From contig JACOUO010000016.1 in assembly GCA_016177845.1 (NCBI GenBank), positions 124,001-188,000 of the forward strand: a DNA stretch of 64,000 bases. The letters run 5' to 3'. The notes beneath the pieces are model-generated. The model saw nothing but the letters and a program-made list of their open reading frames with translations. It did not search any database and was not told the DNA's origin. Origin of the DNA: Deltaproteobacteria bacterium (lineage in GTDB: Bacteria; Desulfobacterota; GWC2-55-46). The position numbers and the translations under genes were made by a program. Of the stretch, positions 9,141 to 16,800 are shown piece by piece (positions within the stretch are counted from its first letter, which is position 1; each line of letters begins with the position of its first letter).

Positions 9141-11813
9141 TCAGAACGCAGAGCCGATGGCGAACTCGAATTGTGAATCAGACTCTCCGGCCTTTGGGTC
9201 AAGATTAAAGCCCATCTCAAGCCTCAAAGGCCCAAGGGGCGAGAACCATCTGATGCCGAAGCCTGCGCCTGCCTTAAACCTTTCAAAGTCTATCTTTCCT
9301 TTGTAGGAATTTCCTACGTCAACAAATAGAAGGCCTTTGATGTTCTGTTCAGGGAAAAGCGGGAACAGGAACTCGGTATTTACAACCATCATTGTATTGC
9401 CGCCGATAAGGTCCCCGGTAGCAGGGTCCTTGGGGCTTATCGTCCTTGTCTCAAACCCCCTGATGGTGTTTATGCCTCCGAGGTAATACCTTTCATAGAT
9501 AGGGACTTCATGGCCCTGATATCCCTGCACATAACCTGCCGAGCCGCGCACTGAAAATGTTGTCTCCCATGGCATGGCGAAGTACTTGACCGCGTCTGCC
9601 TCGTATTTGATGAAGTAGCTGGAGCCCCCGAGGAAGCCGCCCGCAAATTCAGTGGCAATGTTTACAACATGGCCTTCGGTAGGGAAGAAGGCGTCATCAC
9701 GGGTGTCTCTTCTTATCTGCGCCCTTATGCTGCTCTCAGTGCTTGTGCCTTCCTGTTCTTTTATGAATGTGGACGCGGTATCAGCCACATTTGTAATCCT
9801 TACATCTTCAAGCTTGTAAGTGAGGTATCCCTTTGTGTACCTGTCATGTATCGGGAAGCCGAACCTTATGTCGAAGCCTTTTTTGCTAAGGTTAAAGTCA
9901 GGATATTCCCTGTCTGTATTATAGATGTCAAAGCCAGCTGAAAGAGGCTTGTCAAAGAGCCAGGGCTCGGTAATTCCCAATATGTATTTAGAGCTTGAGG
10001 CGCTTACAGTTCCGGAGAGGTCGAGCTTAAGTCCTGTGCCCATGAAGTTCGACTGCGCAACGGAGGCAGTGCCTATGAGCTTGTCAACGGAGCTGTAGCC
10101 AAATCCAAGTGAGATTGACCCGGTGGGCCTTTCCTTTACATCCACATCGAGCTTTATCTTGTCAGGGGCGCTGCCCTGTGTCTGTGCTATCCTTACATCC
10201 TCGAAGTAGCCGAGCCTTCTTAAGTTATTCCTGCTCCTCTTAAGTTCTGAGGCGCCGAAAAGGTCGCCTTCGCCAAGCTCAAGCTCCCTTCTGATTACCT
10301 TATCCCTTGTCTTGAGGTTTCCCGAGATATCAATTCTTTCTATATAGACAAGCTCATTTTTCTTTGTGTCGATAGTGATGTCAATAGTCTTGCTTGCAGG
10401 GTCGACTTTTGTCACGGGCTTTATGTCTGCGTACGCATAGCCTTTATCCCCGTAAGCGTCGGTAATTGCCTCAATGCCTTTGGCAAGCTTTGTCCTGTTG
10501 AAGACCTCGCCGGACTTAAGCTTTATCTTTTCTATCAGCTCTTCTTTTGAGGTGAGTATCTCGCCCTCTACATCTATCTTTCCTACTTTGAACTGGTCGC
10601 CTTCAGAAAGGGCTATTGTGATAAAGAACCATTTCTTGTCTTCGCTCAGAAGCACTCTCTCTTCAACGATATCCGCGTTGATGAAGCCCTTGTCAAAGTA
10701 CTTGCTCATTATGATGGCAATATCGTTCTGGAAAACATACTCATTGAACTTGCCTGAGCTGGTAAGGGCGGTAAAGAAACCGACCTCATTGGTGCTCATG
10801 AAGTCCTTAAGTTCCTTGTCGCTGAAGAACTTGTTGCCGATAAAGGTTATCCTCTTGACTTTAACGGCAGGGCCTTCGTCTATCTGATAGAGGATTGTCG
10901 CCTCAAGGCCGTCTGAAGTCACAACGGGCTTTACTGTTGTAAGGTAATATCCTTCCTGTGAGTAGAGGGCCTTTATCTTTTCTGCGTTCTCATTTAGAAG
11001 CACCCTGTCCAGGGCTGTGTTTTCCTTTAATGTAAGGACTTCCTTTATCTTTTCTTCCTTTACTTCCTTGTTGCCCTTGAACTCTATCTTTTTTATGAAA
11101 GGCATCTCCTTTACCCTGAAGGTAAGGATCTTGCCTGAGGCAGTATCGGAGAGGTCCGCTACGACATCATCAAAAAATCCTGTAGCGTAAATCTTCCTGA
11201 CATCCTCTTTGACATCATCGGGTGAGAAAGGCTCGCCTGCCTTGACCGTAAGCTTTGAGGCGATAGCCTCGGTATCAACCCTTCTGTTGCCTGTGATGAT
11301 AATTTTGTCAATCGTCCCGGACTTTACGGCAGGACGGGCGCTCAGCGCCGAGACCATCTTCTCCTGCATCGGTGCGGCTGATGCCTTAAGCTGCATAAGC
11401 ATCTCTGTTTCCGATACGGAGGATTTAAAATAAAAGGCGACCGGGTTTTTATCCGTAAGGTCGATAATTCGCCAGTCTACATTGGTTGTATTTCCAAGCC
11501 TTGTGATGGAGCCGAGCACGGCGAAATCAGCCTTGACCCTTTTGGCGATTTCAAAGGCCTTTTCTTCATCGAACTTCTCAACACCCTGCTTAAGCATCAG
11601 GCTTCTTATCTCTTCAAGCCCGACTATCTCGGCATCTCTCTCATCGAGAGAGCCTGCGACCGAATCCATTATCAGCCTTCTCAAGGCGGAGATATCGGTC
11701 TTGCTGTGTATATCAAAGGGCAATACCAGCACTTTTATTCCCTGCGCCATCGCTGAAATAGGGAAAACCAGTAAAAGCAGTAAAACGATTGAACACGAAC
11801 GAATAAACCTCAA
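9141..11813 (-). CDS. bamA: Outer-membrane assembly factor BamA with an extra N-terminal periplasmic domain
   Basis: Central Omp85 protein that inserts beta-barrel proteins into the outer membrane. It has 890 residues, longer than the ~800 of proteobacterial BamA. A signal peptide (cleavage near SAMA-Q, residue 23) is followed by an extra alpha/beta domain at about 24-165. This begins IKVLVLPFDIHSKTD and contains ADFAVLGSITRLG, resembling TolB-N/CsgG/LpoB-like folds. Five POTRA repeats follow from about 167 (KIIITGNRRVDTEAIASKL). The 16-strand barrel starts near RPTGSISLGFGYSS, with the conserved YYLGGINTIRGFE (VRGF/Y-type loop 6 motif) and a terminal FEFAIGSAF. Its neighbours skp and lpxD are canonical. 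Confidence 0.94.
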   Translation of the reverse strand: MRFIRSCSIVLLLLLVFPISAMAQGIKVLVLPFDIHSKTDISALRRLIMDSVAGSLDERDAEIVGLEEIRSLMLKQGVEKFDEEKAFEIAKRVKADFAVLGSITRLGNTTNVDWRIIDLTDKNPVAFYFKSSVSETEMLMQLKASAAPMQEKMVSALSARPAVKSGTIDKIIITGNRRVDTEAIASKLTVKAGEPFSPDDVKEDVRKIYATGFFDDVVADLSDTASGKILTFRVKEMPFIKKIEFKGNKEVKEEKIKEVLTLKENTALDRVLLNENAEKIKALYSQEGYYLTTVKPVVTSDGLEATILYQIDEGPAVKVKRITFIGNKFFSDKELKDFMSTNEVGFFTALTSSGKFNEYVFQNDIAIIMSKYFDKGFINADIVEERVLLSEDKKWFFITIALSEGDQFKVGKIDVEGEILTSKEELIEKIKLKSGEVFNRTKLAKGIEAITDAYGDKGYAYADIKPVTKVDPASKTIDITIDTKKNELVYIERIDISGNLKTRDKVIRRELELGEGDLFGASELKRSRNNLRRLGYFEDVRIAQTQGSAPDKIKLDVDVKERPTGSISLGFGYSSVDKLIGTASVAQSNFMGTGLKLDLSGTVSASSSKYILGITEPWLFDKPLSAGFDIYNTDREYPDFNLSKKGFDIRFGFPIHDRYTKGYLTYKLEDVRITNVADTASTFIKEQEGTSTESSIRAQIRRDTRDDAFFPTEGHVVNIATEFAGGFLGGSSYFIKYEADAVKYFAMPWETTFSVRGSAGYVQGYQGHEVPIYERYYLGGINTIRGFETRTISPKDPATGDLIGGNTMMVVNTEFLFPLFPEQNIKGLLFVDVGNSYKGKIDFERFKAGAGFGIRWFSPLGPLRLEMGFNLDPKAGESDSQFEFAIGSAF

Positions 11814-11882: not shown

Positions 11883-12557
11883 CTATTCCTCTTTTATGTT
11901 TCCATCGACCATCGTTATCCTCTTTGAAAGGCGAGATGCCAGCCTCTCATTGTGGGTCACTATTGCCATGGTCGTATCTCTGTCCTTGTTTAATTCGAGC
12001 AATATCTCGAAGACCTCTTCCCCTGTTCTTGTATCAAGGTTTCCAGTAGGCTCATCAGCAAGTATCACCTCAGGGGACTGCATGATTGAGCGCACTATGG
12101 CTGTTCTCTGTTGCTCTCCTCCTGAAAGCTCTCCCGGCTTATGGTTAAGCCTTGAGCCGAGCCCTACCTCTTTTAACAGTCCTTCCGCCCTTGTCCTTGC
12201 GGCCTCAGGCTTTTCACCACCTATAAGGCACGGCAGCATTACATTTTCAAGGGCCGTGAACTCAGGCAATAAATGATGGAACTGAAAGACAAAGCCTATG
12301 AACCTGTTCCTGAAAGAGGCAAGTTTTTTGTCGTCATATTTGAATATGGACTCACCCTTATACAGAACCTCTCCCTCTGTAGGGCGGTCAAGCGCGCCCA
12401 TGATATTAAGGAGGGTTGACTTGCCCACGCCCGAAGCTCCGACAATGGCTAATGTCTCGCCCTTTTTTATGGTAAGGTCGATGCCCCTTAGGACCTCGAC
12501 CTTTTTTTGCGTATTGCCGTATGTCTTATATAGGCGTTTTATCCTTATAAGTTCCAC
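11883..12557 (-). CDS. lolD: Lipoprotein-releasing ABC transporter ATP-binding protein LolD
   Basis: ATPase that powers extraction of outer-membrane lipoproteins from the inner membrane together with LolC/E. It has 224 residues. Walker A is [10 protein letters not shown] (about 36-45), the Q-loop is in [17 protein letters not shown], the signature is [15 protein letters not shown] and Walker B is [11 protein letters not shown]. The [13 protein letters not shown] block is typical of LolD rather than the related MacB ATPases. It starts three bases after the stop of the cyclic-nucleotide-binding gene, which separates it from lolC. Confidence 0.9.
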
Positions 12558-12560
12558 TTG

Positions 12561-13784
12561 CTATATTAAAACCCCCGCGTGTTCGCGCGCTTTTACGATA
12601 TCGACCACACGCTCCTTTATTACCCGCTCAAGGACTCCCTTTACCTGCGGGTATTTTTCCAAAATGTCTTTTATCATCGGCCTTGAGAATACTACCAGCT
12701 CAACATCTGTGGAAGCGGTGACTGTTGCCATCCTCGGCCTGTTCGTGGCAAGGGCTATCTCACCGAAAAAATCCCCTGCCTCAAGCCCGGTAAGGTTAAG
12801 AGTGCCGCCTTTTTTGTCTGAGGCAGTTACCGAGACAGAACCCTGTTTGATAAGGTACATTGTATCTCCCTTATCGCCCTCGCTCATTATTACAGAACCT
12901 GCCGTAAATTTGACTGAACTGAGCCTTGAGATTATCTCTTTCCTGTCAGCTTCGGTCATGAACCTGAATACTTCAGAGAGCGCCATGAGCTTGTCAACGA
13001 TGCGCTCCTTGTAAAAATCAAATAGTACCTGCTCAACCCTGCCGTGTTTGGATATGATCTCGTTCAGGTCGTTTTTCGTAAGCTCGAGTATAGTTGAGCT
13101 TACGCCAGCCTTTATATCTGTCGTCCTCTTTGAGTTGAGGAAAAAACCGAACTCCCCGAATATCGAACCTTCCTTAAGTCTTGAAAGGATGACCCGGGAT
13201 GAGTCCTGCGCCCGGCCGATTACCTCTACTTCCCCTTCGGCCACTATGAATATCGAATTGCCGCTGTCACCCTCATGAAAGAGATATTCGCCAGAGGGCA
13301 GGCTCCTTGACCTGACCTTTTTTATTACATCAAGGAACTCCTCTTCCCTGAAATCAGAGAACAGAGGCGTCCTTGGCAGGTGTTTATTGTTAATTAGTTC
13401 CGAGGCCTGTGTTCCAGCCCCCGGAGTTTTGTTCTTTTCAAAAGCCGGACTGCCCGCCTGCCTGCCGTAGAGCCCGGCAAGCTTTTCCTGAGCGTCCTGC
13501 CGTGACGGGTCAATATTGGTTATCATCTTACATACTGCTATTGCCTTGATAATAAAACCGAGCTTCACGAAGCTCTCTGAGGCCTCGTTGTAATATCCGA
13601 TGGCTGTTTCGGTCTCATCCATCTTTCTTGCTATGTCGCCAAGCCTGAGAAAAATCCTCGGGTCTTTTTCGCCGTAGGATTTTATCTTTTCATAAGCAGC
13701 AAGGGCCTCACTGTATCTGCCCTTTGAAAAAAAGGCCTCTGCCCTGTCTTTCGCCGCCGCTACTATGTTAGGGTCGATTGCCAT
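12561..13784 (-). CDS. TPR protein with tandem cyclic-nucleotide-binding domains
   Basis: Function not known. The 407 residues break into an N-terminal TPR-like helical region (about 1-110, with AEAFFSKGRYSEALAAYEKI), a short linker, and two cNMP-binding domains (about 145-260 and 270-395). The second has a canonical phosphate-binding cassette, FGEIALATNRPRMATVTA. The first, FGEFGFFLNSKRTTDIKA, keeps the Gly-Glu and Arg but is diverged. No DNA-binding helix-turn-helix is visible, so this is not a CRP-type regulator. The layout resembles regulatory subunits that act on a partner. It lies inside the lol operon (3 bases from lolD, 6 from lolC), hinting at a link to lipoprotein export or at simple co-expression. 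Confidence 0.85.
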   Translation of the reverse strand: MAIDPNIVAAAKDRAEAFFSKGRYSEALAAYEKIKSYGEKDPRIFLRLGDIARKMDETETAIGYYNEASESFVKLGFIIKAIAVCKMITNIDPSRQDAQEKLAGLYGRQAGSPAFEKNKTPGAGTQASELINNKHLPRTPLFSDFREEEFLDVIKKVRSRSLPSGEYLFHEGDSGNSIFIVAEGEVEVIGRAQDSSRVILSRLKEGSIFGEFGFFLNSKRTTDIKAGVSSTILELTKNDLNEIISKHGRVEQVLFDFYKERIVDKLMALSEVFRFMTEADRKEIISRLSSVKFTAGSVIMSEGDKGDTMYLIKQGSVSVTASDKKGGTLNLTGLEAGDFFGEIALATNRPRMATVTASTDVELVVFSRPMIKDILEKYPQVKGVLERVIKERVVDIVKAREHAGVLI

Positions 13785-13790
13785 CAGGCC

Positions 13791-15059
13791 TCATTCATAC
13801 CTGAGCCCTTCGACAGGGTCAAACCTTGAGGCCTGCCATGAAGGGTAGATTGTGGCGAGGAAACTTATGCTGATGGAGATGACCACTATGGCAAGCACTA
13901 CCATTGGTTCGACCTTTGAAGGGAACTTGTCGATATAGTAAATGGACGGAGGCAGCACCTTGAAATGGAATATCCTCTCGATGAACTGGACTATGGATTC
14001 CATGTTGAGCGCGGCCAAAAGCCCGAACACTGTGCCCAGAAATGTTCCTGTCACGCCGATTATTATTCCCTCTATCATGAATATCTTCATGATGCCGCGC
14101 GATGTCGCCCCAAGGCTTTTAAGTATGGCTATGTCCTTGCCCTTCTCCATGACTACCATGATAAGCGTGCTTATGATATTTAGCGCCGCTACAAGGATGA
14201 TAAGCGTAAGTATGATGAACATGGCGACCTTCTCAAGCTTGAGCGCCGAGAACAGGTTCTTGTTCATCTCCACCCATGTGCGGGTCCAGTACGAGCCCTT
14301 AAGCTGCGTCATTATGTCATCGGCAATTTTATCTGCCCCGTATATGTCAGCTATCTTCACCTCTACGCCTGTTACGGTATCCCCAAGCCTGAAGAACCTC
14401 TGCGCGTTCTCAAGGGAGATAAAGGCGAGGCTTGAGTCATATTCATACATGCCAAGCTCAAAAATGCCTGTAACCTTAAAGGGAGCCATCCTTGGTACAG
14501 GCCCCGCGGGCGTCATCGTGCCCATGGGAGAGATTACATTAATCGTATCCCCGACTTCTACCCCGATAGTCTTGGCAAGCTCTCTGCCGATTACTATTCC
14601 CGGGTTTGTGCCGTTTGCGCCAGCGTCCTGAAAAGGTATTTTCAGTCCTTCGAGGGAGCCTTCTTTGACTTTGCCCGGCAGCACTGTAGCTTCAGCGGCG
14701 GTCTTCATGTCAAGACCCCGTATTACCGCGCCTATGACGCCTCCGCTTGAGGATATCATTGCCTGGTCATAGGTAAATGGGGTAGCCCCTGTTACGCCGG
14801 GGACTTTTTTGACCTCTTCGGTTACATGGCCGTAGTCTTTCATGCCCTGCCCAAGCCCTGTTACTACCACATGGGCATTGATGCCGAGAATCTTCTCCTT
14901 GAGGTTCTCTTCAAAGCCTGTCATTACGGACAGAACTATAATGAGGGCAGTGACCCCGACCGTAATCCCAAGTATGGAGATAAAGGTGATTACGGATATA
15001 AACGTCTGCTTTCTCTTGGCTTTGAGATACCGCAGCCCTATGAAAAGTTCGTAAGACAT
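13791..15059 (-). CDS. lolC: Lipoprotein-releasing ABC transporter permease LolC/LolE
   Basis: Inner-membrane permease that releases lipoproteins to LolA, working with LolD. It has 422 residues. The N-terminus FIGLRYLKAKRKQTFISVIT is diagnostic of the LolC/E family and runs into the first membrane helix. A large periplasmic MacB-like domain (about 50-265) and three C-terminal helices (FtsX domain, from MFIILTLIILVAALNIISTL) follow. Only one such permease gene is present, so it may act as a homodimer, as in species with a single LolF-type protein. It is downstream of lysS after a 140-base gap with small inverted repeats. Confidence 0.9.
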   Translation of the reverse strand: MSYELFIGLRYLKAKRKQTFISVITFISILGITVGVTALIIVLSVMTGFEENLKEKILGINAHVVVTGLGQGMKDYGHVTEEVKKVPGVTGATPFTYDQAMISSSGGVIGAVIRGLDMKTAAEATVLPGKVKEGSLEGLKIPFQDAGANGTNPGIVIGRELAKTIGVEVGDTINVISPMGTMTPAGPVPRMAPFKVTGIFELGMYEYDSSLAFISLENAQRFFRLGDTVTGVEVKIADIYGADKIADDIMTQLKGSYWTRTWVEMNKNLFSALKLEKVAMFIILTLIILVAALNIISTLIMVVMEKGKDIAILKSLGATSRGIMKIFMIEGIIIGVTGTFLGTVFGLLAALNMESIVQFIERIFHFKVLPPSIYYIDKFPSKVEPMVVLAIVVISISISFLATIYPSWQASRFDPVEGLRYE

Positions 15060-15199: not shown

Positions 15200-16678
15200 T
15201 TATTCCTTCTTAAGCTGGGGGAACAGTATCACATCCCTGATAGACGGCGAATTGGTAAGGAACATTACAAGCCTGTCAATACCGATGCCTTCGCCTGCTG
15301 TCGGGGGCATTCCGTGCTCAAGCGCCCTTACATAATCCTCATCCATCTCATGCGCCTCGGCATCTCCGGCAGCCTTTTCCTTAAGCTGGTTTTCAAACCT
15401 TTCCTTCTGGTCAACAGGGTCGTTAAGCTCTGAGAACGCGTTGGCAATCTCTTTGCCGTTTACAAGAAGCTCAAACCTGTCAACGAGGTTCGGGTCTTGT
15501 GCGTTCTTCCTTGAAAGCGGCGATACATCAAGGGGATAATGCGTTACGAAAGTCGGCTGAATGAACCTGTGCTCGGCGACTGCCTCGAATATCTCGGTGA
15601 TAATCTTACCGTGGCTTAAGCCCTCAGGTATTTTAAGCCCAAGCTCTTTTGAGAACTGAAGGGCCTTGTCCTTATCCGTGAATATCTCTTCTCCGGGGTT
15701 TGAGAACTTAAGAATTGCGTCTTTTACCGTAATCCTCTGCCACGGTGCGGTAAAGTCAATCTCTTTACCCTGATACTCTATCTTTTTTGAGCCGTGAATC
15801 TTCTCCACAAGCCCGCTTATCATCTCTTCAGTCAGGTCCATCAGGTCTTCAAAGGTTGCGTAAGCCTGATAGAACTCAAGCATGGTGAACTCAGGGTTGT
15901 GCATGGTTGAGATGCCTTCGTTCCTGAAGTTCCTGTTTATCTCAAATACCCGTTCAAGCCCGCCTACGACAAGCCTTTTCAAATAAAGCTCAGGGGCTAT
16001 CCTCATGTAAAGTTCCATGCCGAGGGCATTATGGTAGGTCTTGAAAGGCTTTGCCGCCGCGCCTCCGGGAATAGGCTGGAGCATGGGGGTCTCAACCTCT
16101 ATAAAATCCCTTTCGCCGAGAAATTCCCTGATATGGCGGATTATCTGAGTCCTTTTCAGGAATACATCCCTGACCTCAGGGTTTACCATGATGTCTAAGT
16201 ATCTCTGCCTGTATCTTGCCTCTACATCGGTAAGGCCGTGCCATTTTTCAGGCAAAGGGTGCAGGCCCTTTGCAAGGAGTCTTAATTTAAGCGCCTCGAT
16301 GGTAAGCTCATTGGTGCGTGTCCTGAAGAGTATGCCTTCGATGCCGACAATGTCGCCTATGTCGCAGAGCTTGAAAAGCTTATAGCCTTCTTCGCCGAGG
16401 ATGTCCTTTTTTATGTAGGCCTGTATTTTACCGGCCCTGTCCTGAATATGTATGAAAGATGCCTTGCCGAAATCCCTGATTGCCATGATGCGGCCCGCAA
16501 CCGTTACCGAAATCTTTTTCTCTTCAAGCTCTTCCTTTGCGGTCTCGCCGTAATTGGAGATTATCTCTCCGCTTGTATGACTTGGCTTGAAATCATTGGG
16601 ATAGGGCTCGATGCCCGCTGCCTTCAGGTTCTCAAGTTTTTGATAGCGTTGAACGAACTCCGTGCTCCTGTCTTCCAC
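15200..16678 (-). CDS. lysS: Lysyl-tRNA synthetase, class II
   Basis: Charges tRNA-Lys with lysine in the cytoplasm. It has 492 residues. An OB-fold anticodon-binding domain (about 55-150, VAGRIMAIRDFGKASFIHIQD) is followed by the class II catalytic core. Motif 1 is in FIEVETPMLQPIPGGAAAKPF, motif 2 in FEINRNFRNEGISTMHNPEFT, and motif 3 is GIGIDRLVM. I prefer the GTG at 16678, which has GAGG six bases upstream. A TTG two codons earlier (16684) lacks spacing for that site. It is first in the long envelope operon, with a good promoter and a ~115-base leader ahead of it. Confidence 0.95.
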   Translation of the reverse strand: MEDRSTEFVQRYQKLENLKAAGIEPYPNDFKPSHTSGEIISNYGETAKEELEEKKISVTVAGRIMAIRDFGKASFIHIQDRAGKIQAYIKKDILGEEGYKLFKLCDIGDIVGIEGILFRTRTNELTIEALKLRLLAKGLHPLPEKWHGLTDVEARYRQRYLDIMVNPEVRDVFLKRTQIIRHIREFLGERDFIEVETPMLQPIPGGAAAKPFKTYHNALGMELYMRIAPELYLKRLVVGGLERVFEINRNFRNEGISTMHNPEFTMLEFYQAYATFEDLMDLTEEMISGLVEKIHGSKKIEYQGKEIDFTAPWQRITVKDAILKFSNPGEEIFTDKDKALQFSKELGLKIPEGLSHGKIITEIFEAVAEHRFIQPTFVTHYPLDVSPLSRKNAQDPNLVDRFELLVNGKEIANAFSELNDPVDQKERFENQLKEKAAGDAEAHEMDEDYVRALEHGMPPTAGEGIGIDRLVMFLTNSPSIRDVILFPQLKKE

Positions 16679-16800
16679 ACTCAACCTCTTCCGAATTCTT
16701 TTTTTCGCTTACAATGGTTTTGAATCGTTCAGGCTGCTCTGAAAAAACAGATAAAAAACAAGCCTGAAACAGGTCCGTAAGCCTGAGACTAATGTTTAAA

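Follow-up and report, generated by a model that had tools for sequence, protein, structure and literature searches.

What is a protein that resembles a receptor for a cyclic nucleotide doing among the genes of a lipoprotein exporter? The question is raised by a gene found between lolC and lolD in a stretch of 64,000 nucleotides, here called the window, from a Deltaproteobacteria bacterium (Desulfobacterota, GWC2-55-46; contig JACOUO010000016.1, positions 124,001 to 188,000). The answer favored here, to which a probability of about 0.4 is given, is that its product is a cytosolic cAMP receptor resembling PKA-R, the cAMP-sensing regulatory subunit of animal protein kinase A, made together with LolC and LolD and probably modulating that exporter (for an account of the Lol pathway, see PMC10865981).

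Table 1. Genes and protein features at the lolC-lolD locus of the window (residue numbers are those of the TPR-CNB-CNB protein)
Feature	Position	Strand	Basis or remark
lysS-like gene, upstream neighbor in conserved block	15200..16684	minus	tblastn matches beside lolC in relatives
lolC (LolC/E-type permease)	13791..15059	minus	NCBIfam TIGR02212, 444.6 bits against cut-off 362.45
TPR-CNB-CNB protein gene	12561..13784	minus	single ORF, ATG start, 407 amino acids
N-terminal TPR module, residues 5-110	13455..13772	minus	Pfam TPR; seven helices in AlphaFold model
Disordered linker, residues 113-133	13386..13448	minus	pLDDT <50 at 113-125 and 127-133; length varies among relatives
CNB domain 1 (CNB1), about residues 141-246	13047..13364	minus	Pfam, PDB matches, model
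Phosphate-binding cassette 1, residues 206-224, with E211 and R220	13113..13169	minus	alignment
CNB domain 2 (CNB2), about residues 270-401	12582..12977	minus	Pfam, PDB matches, model
Phosphate-binding cassette 2, residues 337-355, with E342 and R351	12720..12776	minus	alignment
lolD (ABC ATPase), GTG start	11883..12557	minus	best NCBIfam match TIGR02211, 288 bits, below cut-off 307.75
bamA-like gene, downstream neighbor in conserved block	9141..11813	minus	tblastn matches beside lolD in relatives

Architecture of the protein and setting of its gene

The gene is separated from lolC by 6 bases and from lolD by 3, as a preliminary description of the locus had it; the ORF coordinates confirm this placement and supply the strand, which is minus for all three. 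By eye, a GAGG is present 4 bases 5′ of the ATG and overlaps the lolC stop codon, and because of this, together with the GTG of lolD 3 bases past the preceding stop, translation of the three genes is likely coupled. A shared operon and strand with lolC and lolD, as looked for in a LolCD subunit, is thus seen at the level of adjacency and orientation. (The labels lysS-like and bamA-like are presumptive, given by the look of the sequences.) A chance origin of the ORF is excluded by its having matches in 31 of the 59 genomes of the nearest groups (its own included, some matches being cut by contig ends) and homologs, 23-39% identical to it, in further classes of the same phylum.

The earlier claim of TPR helices plus two cNMP domains and no DNA-binding domain is borne out by Pfam. 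Two stretches match PF00027 (cNMP_binding) with 150.3 bits against a cut-off of 27.5 (E 1.5e-44), TPR_1 is barely over its cut-off (29.3 against 27.8 bits), and a DNA-binding family is absent from the nine families matched at E <= 0.01 in the 407-residue protein. Classification as a CRP/FNR transcription factor was rejected, there being no C-terminal helix-turn-helix Pfam match at E <= 0.01; the CRP model gives 101.1 bits against a cut-off of 266, with its best stretch within the CNB part. Pycsar matches from PADLOC were set aside as confined to the CNB parts, and PHROGs yielded zero matches to the 407-residue protein. Membership of the CNB superfamily is indicated by the PF00027 score, a beta barrel with its cassette, and the Glu and Arg of the cassettes.

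The AlphaFold model, for which the input was 53 sequences (the window's own and 52 homologs), has a pLDDT of 89.2 and a pTM of 0.82, and in it a helix of residues 248-269 connects CNB1 to CNB2. By sequence the nearest PDB chains are those of PKG and PKA-R. The top Foldseek matches are likewise tandem CNB domains of PKA-R or PKG, several with bound cAMP or cGMP according to their titles, and include the PKA-R of Toxoplasma and Plasmodium (with cAMP, per title), Euglena and yeast. Over the whole length, TM-scores to these matches reach only about 0.3; a different placement of the domains and the lack of a counterpart to the TPR part in those chains probably account for this. The fold comparison spans mostly residues 247-403, scarcely covering the TPR part, and CNB2 alone gives Z values of 16.5-19.2 against domains of PKG, PKA and HCN.

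Two CNB domains in tandem, as in PKA-R, are therefore seen by Pfam, model and Foldseek alike, and each with a Glu/Arg cassette. The differences are that the protein is bacterial, is encoded in a lol operon and is only 17-26% identical to the proteins among the fold matches listed. Filing it as PKA-R proper was rejected since the N-terminus consists of TPR helices, at residues 5-110, in place of a dimerization/docking domain, of which there is no trace among the Pfam families at E <= 0.01. This substitution also bears on a reading in which the protein serves a Ser/Thr kinase, encoded elsewhere, as its regulatory subunit. PKA-R and PKG being the best matches by both sequence and fold would fit such a role, and there is a bacterial parallel in Myxococcus xanthus CbpB, a PKA-R homolog reported to interact with the kinase SpkA in a paper cited in PMC11139211. 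However, with the TPR module occupying the place of the PKA-R dimerization region, a kinase partner of this type is judged very improbable. The likeness to CbpB, another bacterial PKA-R-like protein, is one of description, and at the Myxococcota and Acidobacteriota loci retrieved here the short flanks are free of lolC and lolD matches. Pseudomonas CbpA, a second cAMP effector beside Vfr, is described in the same source (PMC11139211).

A precedent for CNB domains joined to, or working with, ABC-type transporters is provided by the CNB domains attached to ABC-transporter-like regions in the AAA_ATPase group of Kannan et al. 2007 (PMC2246266) and by the bacteriocin transport-associated CNB proteins of TIGR03896. 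The window's protein differs in being a separate, TPR-bearing protein instead of a transporter fusion, and assignment to TIGR03896 was rejected (65.5 bits against a cut-off of 161.05). The N-terminal part of the SgmX model is matched by its TPR module (E 2.9e-08, and 6e-17 in the homolog of G067), the differences being that the module has only about three repeats, is fused to CNB domains and scores far below the model cut-off of 1800 bits. Elsewhere in the same genome a large TPR protein (L005 1-1821, minus; G000:C18) has an N-terminus that matches the SgmX model at 1.4e-39, also far below cut-off, and is 37% identical to the TPR module of the lol-linked gene; a protein of this type is a possible source of that module. 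Length between the modules varies, as illustrated by an ortholog in G034 (L061 4146-8600, minus), a single frame of 1484 residues in which about 1000 residues of charged AEEAR-type sequence separate the TPR from the CNB domains and likely form one long helix or coiled coil.

Putative cyclic-nucleotide sites and the possible supply of ligand

The alignment on which site conservation was assessed has 88 non-identical rows, derived from 162 matching frames of which 127 passed a coverage filter (35 dropped); it takes in homologs away from lol and second copies, and at least one protein, the third copy in G105, is present twice (a full and a cut row). Site 1 has E211 in 88/88 rows, R220 in 88/88 and the loop glycine, Gly175, in 87/88; the corresponding figures for E342, R351 and Gly306 at site 2 are 87/88, 76/88 and 58/88. 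In order of conservation E211, R220, E342 and R351 rank 5, 6, 18 and 49 of 375 columns, ties included. Across the family site 1 is, as far as sequence goes, the more constant and site 2 the variable one.

This modifies the view that site 1 is diverged and site 2 canonical. In the window's own protein the letters around the pair in cassette 1 are indeed several off the textbook cassette, yet the ribose-binding Glu, E211, and the phosphate-binding Arg, R220, are kept, as they are in every row, and it is site 2 that varies more. The proposal that one site is active and the other, site 1, altered is consequently reversed for the family (R220 88/88 versus R351 76/88). With E342 and R351 also in place at site 2, both sites of the window's own protein look competent.

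The 12 rows without R351 have His in 7 (family f21), Ala in 4 (f19) and Tyr in 1 (G078), and represent three lineages, not 12 events. Gly306, which belongs to the beta2-beta3 loop, is lost in all 12 of them, versus 18 of the 76 that keep Arg. This joint loss resembles the Arg209-glycine co-evolution described for CNB domains (PMC2246266). A further position is informative in that trypanosome PKA-R, which binds nucleosides and not cAMP, has Glu at the discriminating position (PMC10959531). The rows aligned here have Gly, Ser or Ala there in site 1; in site 2 the residue is Ala, Ser, Gly or Pro.

Class III cyclases are a candidate source of ligand. Three are encoded in the window's genome, of which two carry CHASE2 and the third HAMP. 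By eye, we take all three to keep the purine Lys along with both Asp motifs for metal binding, the second specificity position presumably being Glu in the HAMP cyclase and Asp in the other two. PDEase_II had zero matches in the window's genome, in a search whose control matched just 2 of 14 genomes, none over cut-off. Among 297 genomes of the phylum a cyclase match is present in 230, comprising 53/60 with the gene versus 177/237 without (Fisher p 0.025, kinship ignored). The co-occurrence is weak, kinship among the genomes keeping it from being counted as strong.

Of the carriers of the gene, the 7 that lack a match to class III cyclase (PF00211) are all of f21 (G066, G102, G136, G191, G216, G239 and G280), and exactly the same 7 carry R351H while keeping the Glu and Arg of site 1. 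As one lineage they amount to one event, which suggests that site 2 may decay once the class III cyclase is lost. The constancy of site 1 in f21 is not explained by such a rule, and f19, with R351A although cyclases are present, is at odds with it.

These two families give some substance to the reading that the CNB domains are past cyclic-nucleotide sensing, serving as a scaffold or for some other small ligand in a constitutive assembly factor: f21 retains its site-1 pair where no cyclase is matched, f19 has shed the site-2 Arg where cyclases remain, and ligands other than cyclic nucleotides are known for the CNB fold (PMC2246266, PMC10959531). Against it are the invariance of the ligand-contacting pair at site 1, the small residues at the nucleoside-discriminating position, the fact that Arg351 and Gly306 go together, and the presence of homologs beside cyclase and phosphodiesterase-type genes (below). 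A non-sensing role is regarded as unlikely, and binding of a cyclic nucleotide by the TPR-CNB-CNB protein as likely.

Other CNB proteins, and the locus of one cyclase, were noted in the window's genome. A frame of 165 residues (L004 1405-1899, minus; G000:C12, about 47.2 kb) consists of one CNB domain, whose cassette is canonical, and is flanked by a molybdopterin oxidoreductase gene (NuoG-like or formate dehydrogenase-like) and nuoH, a second housekeeping operon in this genome with a CNB protein inside. In L069 (G000:C23, about 214 kb) the HAMP-cyclase gene and a TPR gene adjoin an ABC ATPase gene; by look, the TPR product is lipoprotein-like and the ATPase LolD/MacB-type-like. An MscS-type channel has a C-terminal CNB domain (L002 520-1962; G000:C5).

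Linkage to lol, loss of the gene and homologs elsewhere

Lol linkage of the gene is old. Both lolC and lolD flank it in 28 of the 31 carriers in the nearest groups, the others (G007, G023 and G033) having one neighbor visible before a contig end, and a scan of named genome contigs gave 32 close loci (L077-L108), each having LolC, LolD or both next to the gene; these are from 'Deltaproteobacteria bacterium' MAGs and the like, and many repeat the same assemblies. In the phylum sample of 297 genomes the gene has a match in 60 at a threshold of 1e-30 (its own genome included) and is beside lolC and/or lolD in 53 of them, of which G077, G097 and G284 show one lol neighbor on account of contig ends and G077 only part of the gene. 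Even at below 40% identity the gene keeps its place between the two lol genes, and in all 72 loci holding the three genes (each counted once by match scores) they share a strand. A Deferrisomatales MAG outside the sample has the order lysS-lolC-gene-lolD-bamA. The preliminary description had asked whether relatives keep the gene beside lolCD or carry it at unrelated loci, and for the most part they keep it there. A tie of lolCD to a PKA-R-like protein with tandem CNB domains is accordingly supported by the domains, the fold matches and this 53/60 linkage. An extreme case within the phylum is L185 (G105:C5 130000-142000), with two lolC-like genes and three tandem TPR-CNB-CNB copies ahead of lolD.

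Related proteins occur in other phyla, with a match in 17 of 95 genomes at 1e-60 in the phylum of a Myxococcales MAG (G345), and in 13 of 99 at 1e-40 in that of a Thermoanaerobaculia MAG (G343), the center genome being counted in each. Judged by the range of the match some of these have TPR with two CNB domains, some TPR with one, and others are limited to the CNB part. A LolC or LolD match is absent from the flanks of about 1.5 kb in all 53 of the Myxococcota and Acidobacteriota loci (L191-L243), and the lol-linked arrangement appears to be specific to the phylum of the window and close neighbors.

The gene is dispensable for lolCD. Among the 28 close relatives without it, lolD comes next after lolC in 19, the measured gaps being 6-245 bases; contig ends interrupt the locus in 2, and the other 7 are without a LolD match at 1e-60. 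On a tree of LolC, presence of the gene changes at least 7 times, 5 of the changes being forced by well-supported branches. (The tree has 91 rows, 73 with and 18 without the gene, including the duplicate pairs L001/L076 and L031/L080; L061, L106 and L181 were set to gene-bearing by hand, a coverage filter having missed the gene, and L039, with a split LolC match, is outside it.) In G054 the lolC-lolD interval (L046 1290-1500) has a weak remnant resembling the start of the gene (33 bases, 76%, E 0.011) and a second corresponding to its 3′ flank and about its last 10 codons (202 bases, 71%, E 2.6e-26 to L092; 37 bases, 97% to L025), the 3′ piece being, by our count, out of frame with the start piece. 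Since the remnants read as an internal deletion, absence in this genome is taken as loss, and the interval as an apparent deletion scar of a TPR-CNB-CNB gene.

In 7 of the 60 carriers the best homolog is unlinked to lol (G067, G078, G086, G087, G103, G121 and G137), and it is these genomes that say most about the ligand. In six of them the homolog is among cyclase, phosphodiesterase-type or other signaling genes. It immediately follows a CHASE2-adenylate cyclase gene in G067 and G137; a GAF-GAF-HD gene is next after it in G067, G103, G086 and G121; its cluster includes a class-II cAMP phosphodiesterase gene (PDEase_II, by Pfam) in G067 and G086, with similar-looking frames in G103 and G121. 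The homolog of G078 adjoins PP2C, FHA and CHASE2 frames, the last cut by the end of the stretch. In G086 and G103 the homolog is visible in pieces. The match in G087, a protein with a single CNB stretch, is probably not an ortholog. Five of the seven (G067, G137, G103, G078 and G087) have lolC then lolD without the gene; a LolC match beside lolD is absent in G086 and in G121, the latter cut by a contig end. Second copies away from lol accompany a linked copy in G069 and G131.

The best homologs unlinked to lol raise the possibility of a function apart from Lol. In a tree of 82 homolog rows, those of L132, L142, L143 and L176 (G067, G137, G121 and G078) are within a supported clade (97*) with lol-linked rows; four long-branched f19 rows fall outside the clade of the other lol-linked rows, with unsure placement.

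Is the exporter the target?

LolC and LolD are favored as the partner because of synteny, and as the target they are the weakest step in the argument, with two indirect tests of co-evolution lending no support. Over 41 loci the protein has no excess of distance correlation with LolC and LolD over that with LysS and BamA: with LysS and BamA held, the partial r values for LolC and LolD are 0.152 and 0.026, and, taken the other way round, those for LysS and BamA are 0.636 and 0.405. In a scan of LolC and LolD columns, genomes with and without the gene are not separated by more than 0.6 at any column, the largest difference being at LolC residue 5 (Leu in 100% versus 44%).

In a rival reading the protein is a cAMP receptor or adaptor of general use, placed in an envelope operon for nothing but the timing of its expression, the TPR partner being elsewhere (another signaling protein, for instance) and LolC and LolD not its targets. 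The unlinked homologs amid signaling genes but nested with lol-linked ones, the failure to find co-evolution specific to LolC and LolD, and the 19 close relatives with lolC-lolD and no such gene are all what this reading would lead one to expect. A passenger, however, would be free to lie anywhere in the lysS-bamA block, and the gene stays at one site, between lolC and lolD, in 53/60, to below 40% identity; the three copies in G105 and its second lolC-like gene are also all inside the lysS-lolD stretch. Such a passenger is a serious contender, at odds of about one in three. Direct action on LolC and LolD is put forward tentatively, at odds clearly short of even, and for a role in envelope or lipoprotein traffic, more broadly conceived, the balance is about level.

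As envisaged for the exporter-linked receptor, a soluble, cytosolic protein with a PKA-R-like build, its tandem CNB pair set behind a TPR docking module, would be produced from the lol operon, probably via coupled translation. The cell's class III cyclases would, to go by their domains, supply the cAMP, which would occupy CNB1 and, in most lineages, CNB2 as well. Movement of the hinge helices might then alter the grip of the TPR module on its partner, most likely the cytoplasmic face of the LolC/LolD exporter, so that lipoprotein export could be tuned to cAMP.

In the literature covered (titles and the beginnings of abstracts, with most subscription journals outside it) no paper on a lol-linked TPR-CNB-CNB protein was found, nor one on second-messenger input to a lipoprotein exporter, and to our knowledge no such input has been described. 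Occurrence of the gene in some genomes and its absence from close relatives provide ready comparison pairs. If the reading is right, an ancient, syntenic PKA-R-like receptor would constitute a second-messenger input to a lipoprotein exporter in many lineages of one phylum, and bacterial cAMP would gain an effector other than a transcription factor. The conserved placement in the lol operon suggests that cAMP and the outer envelope may be connected in a way not yet described.
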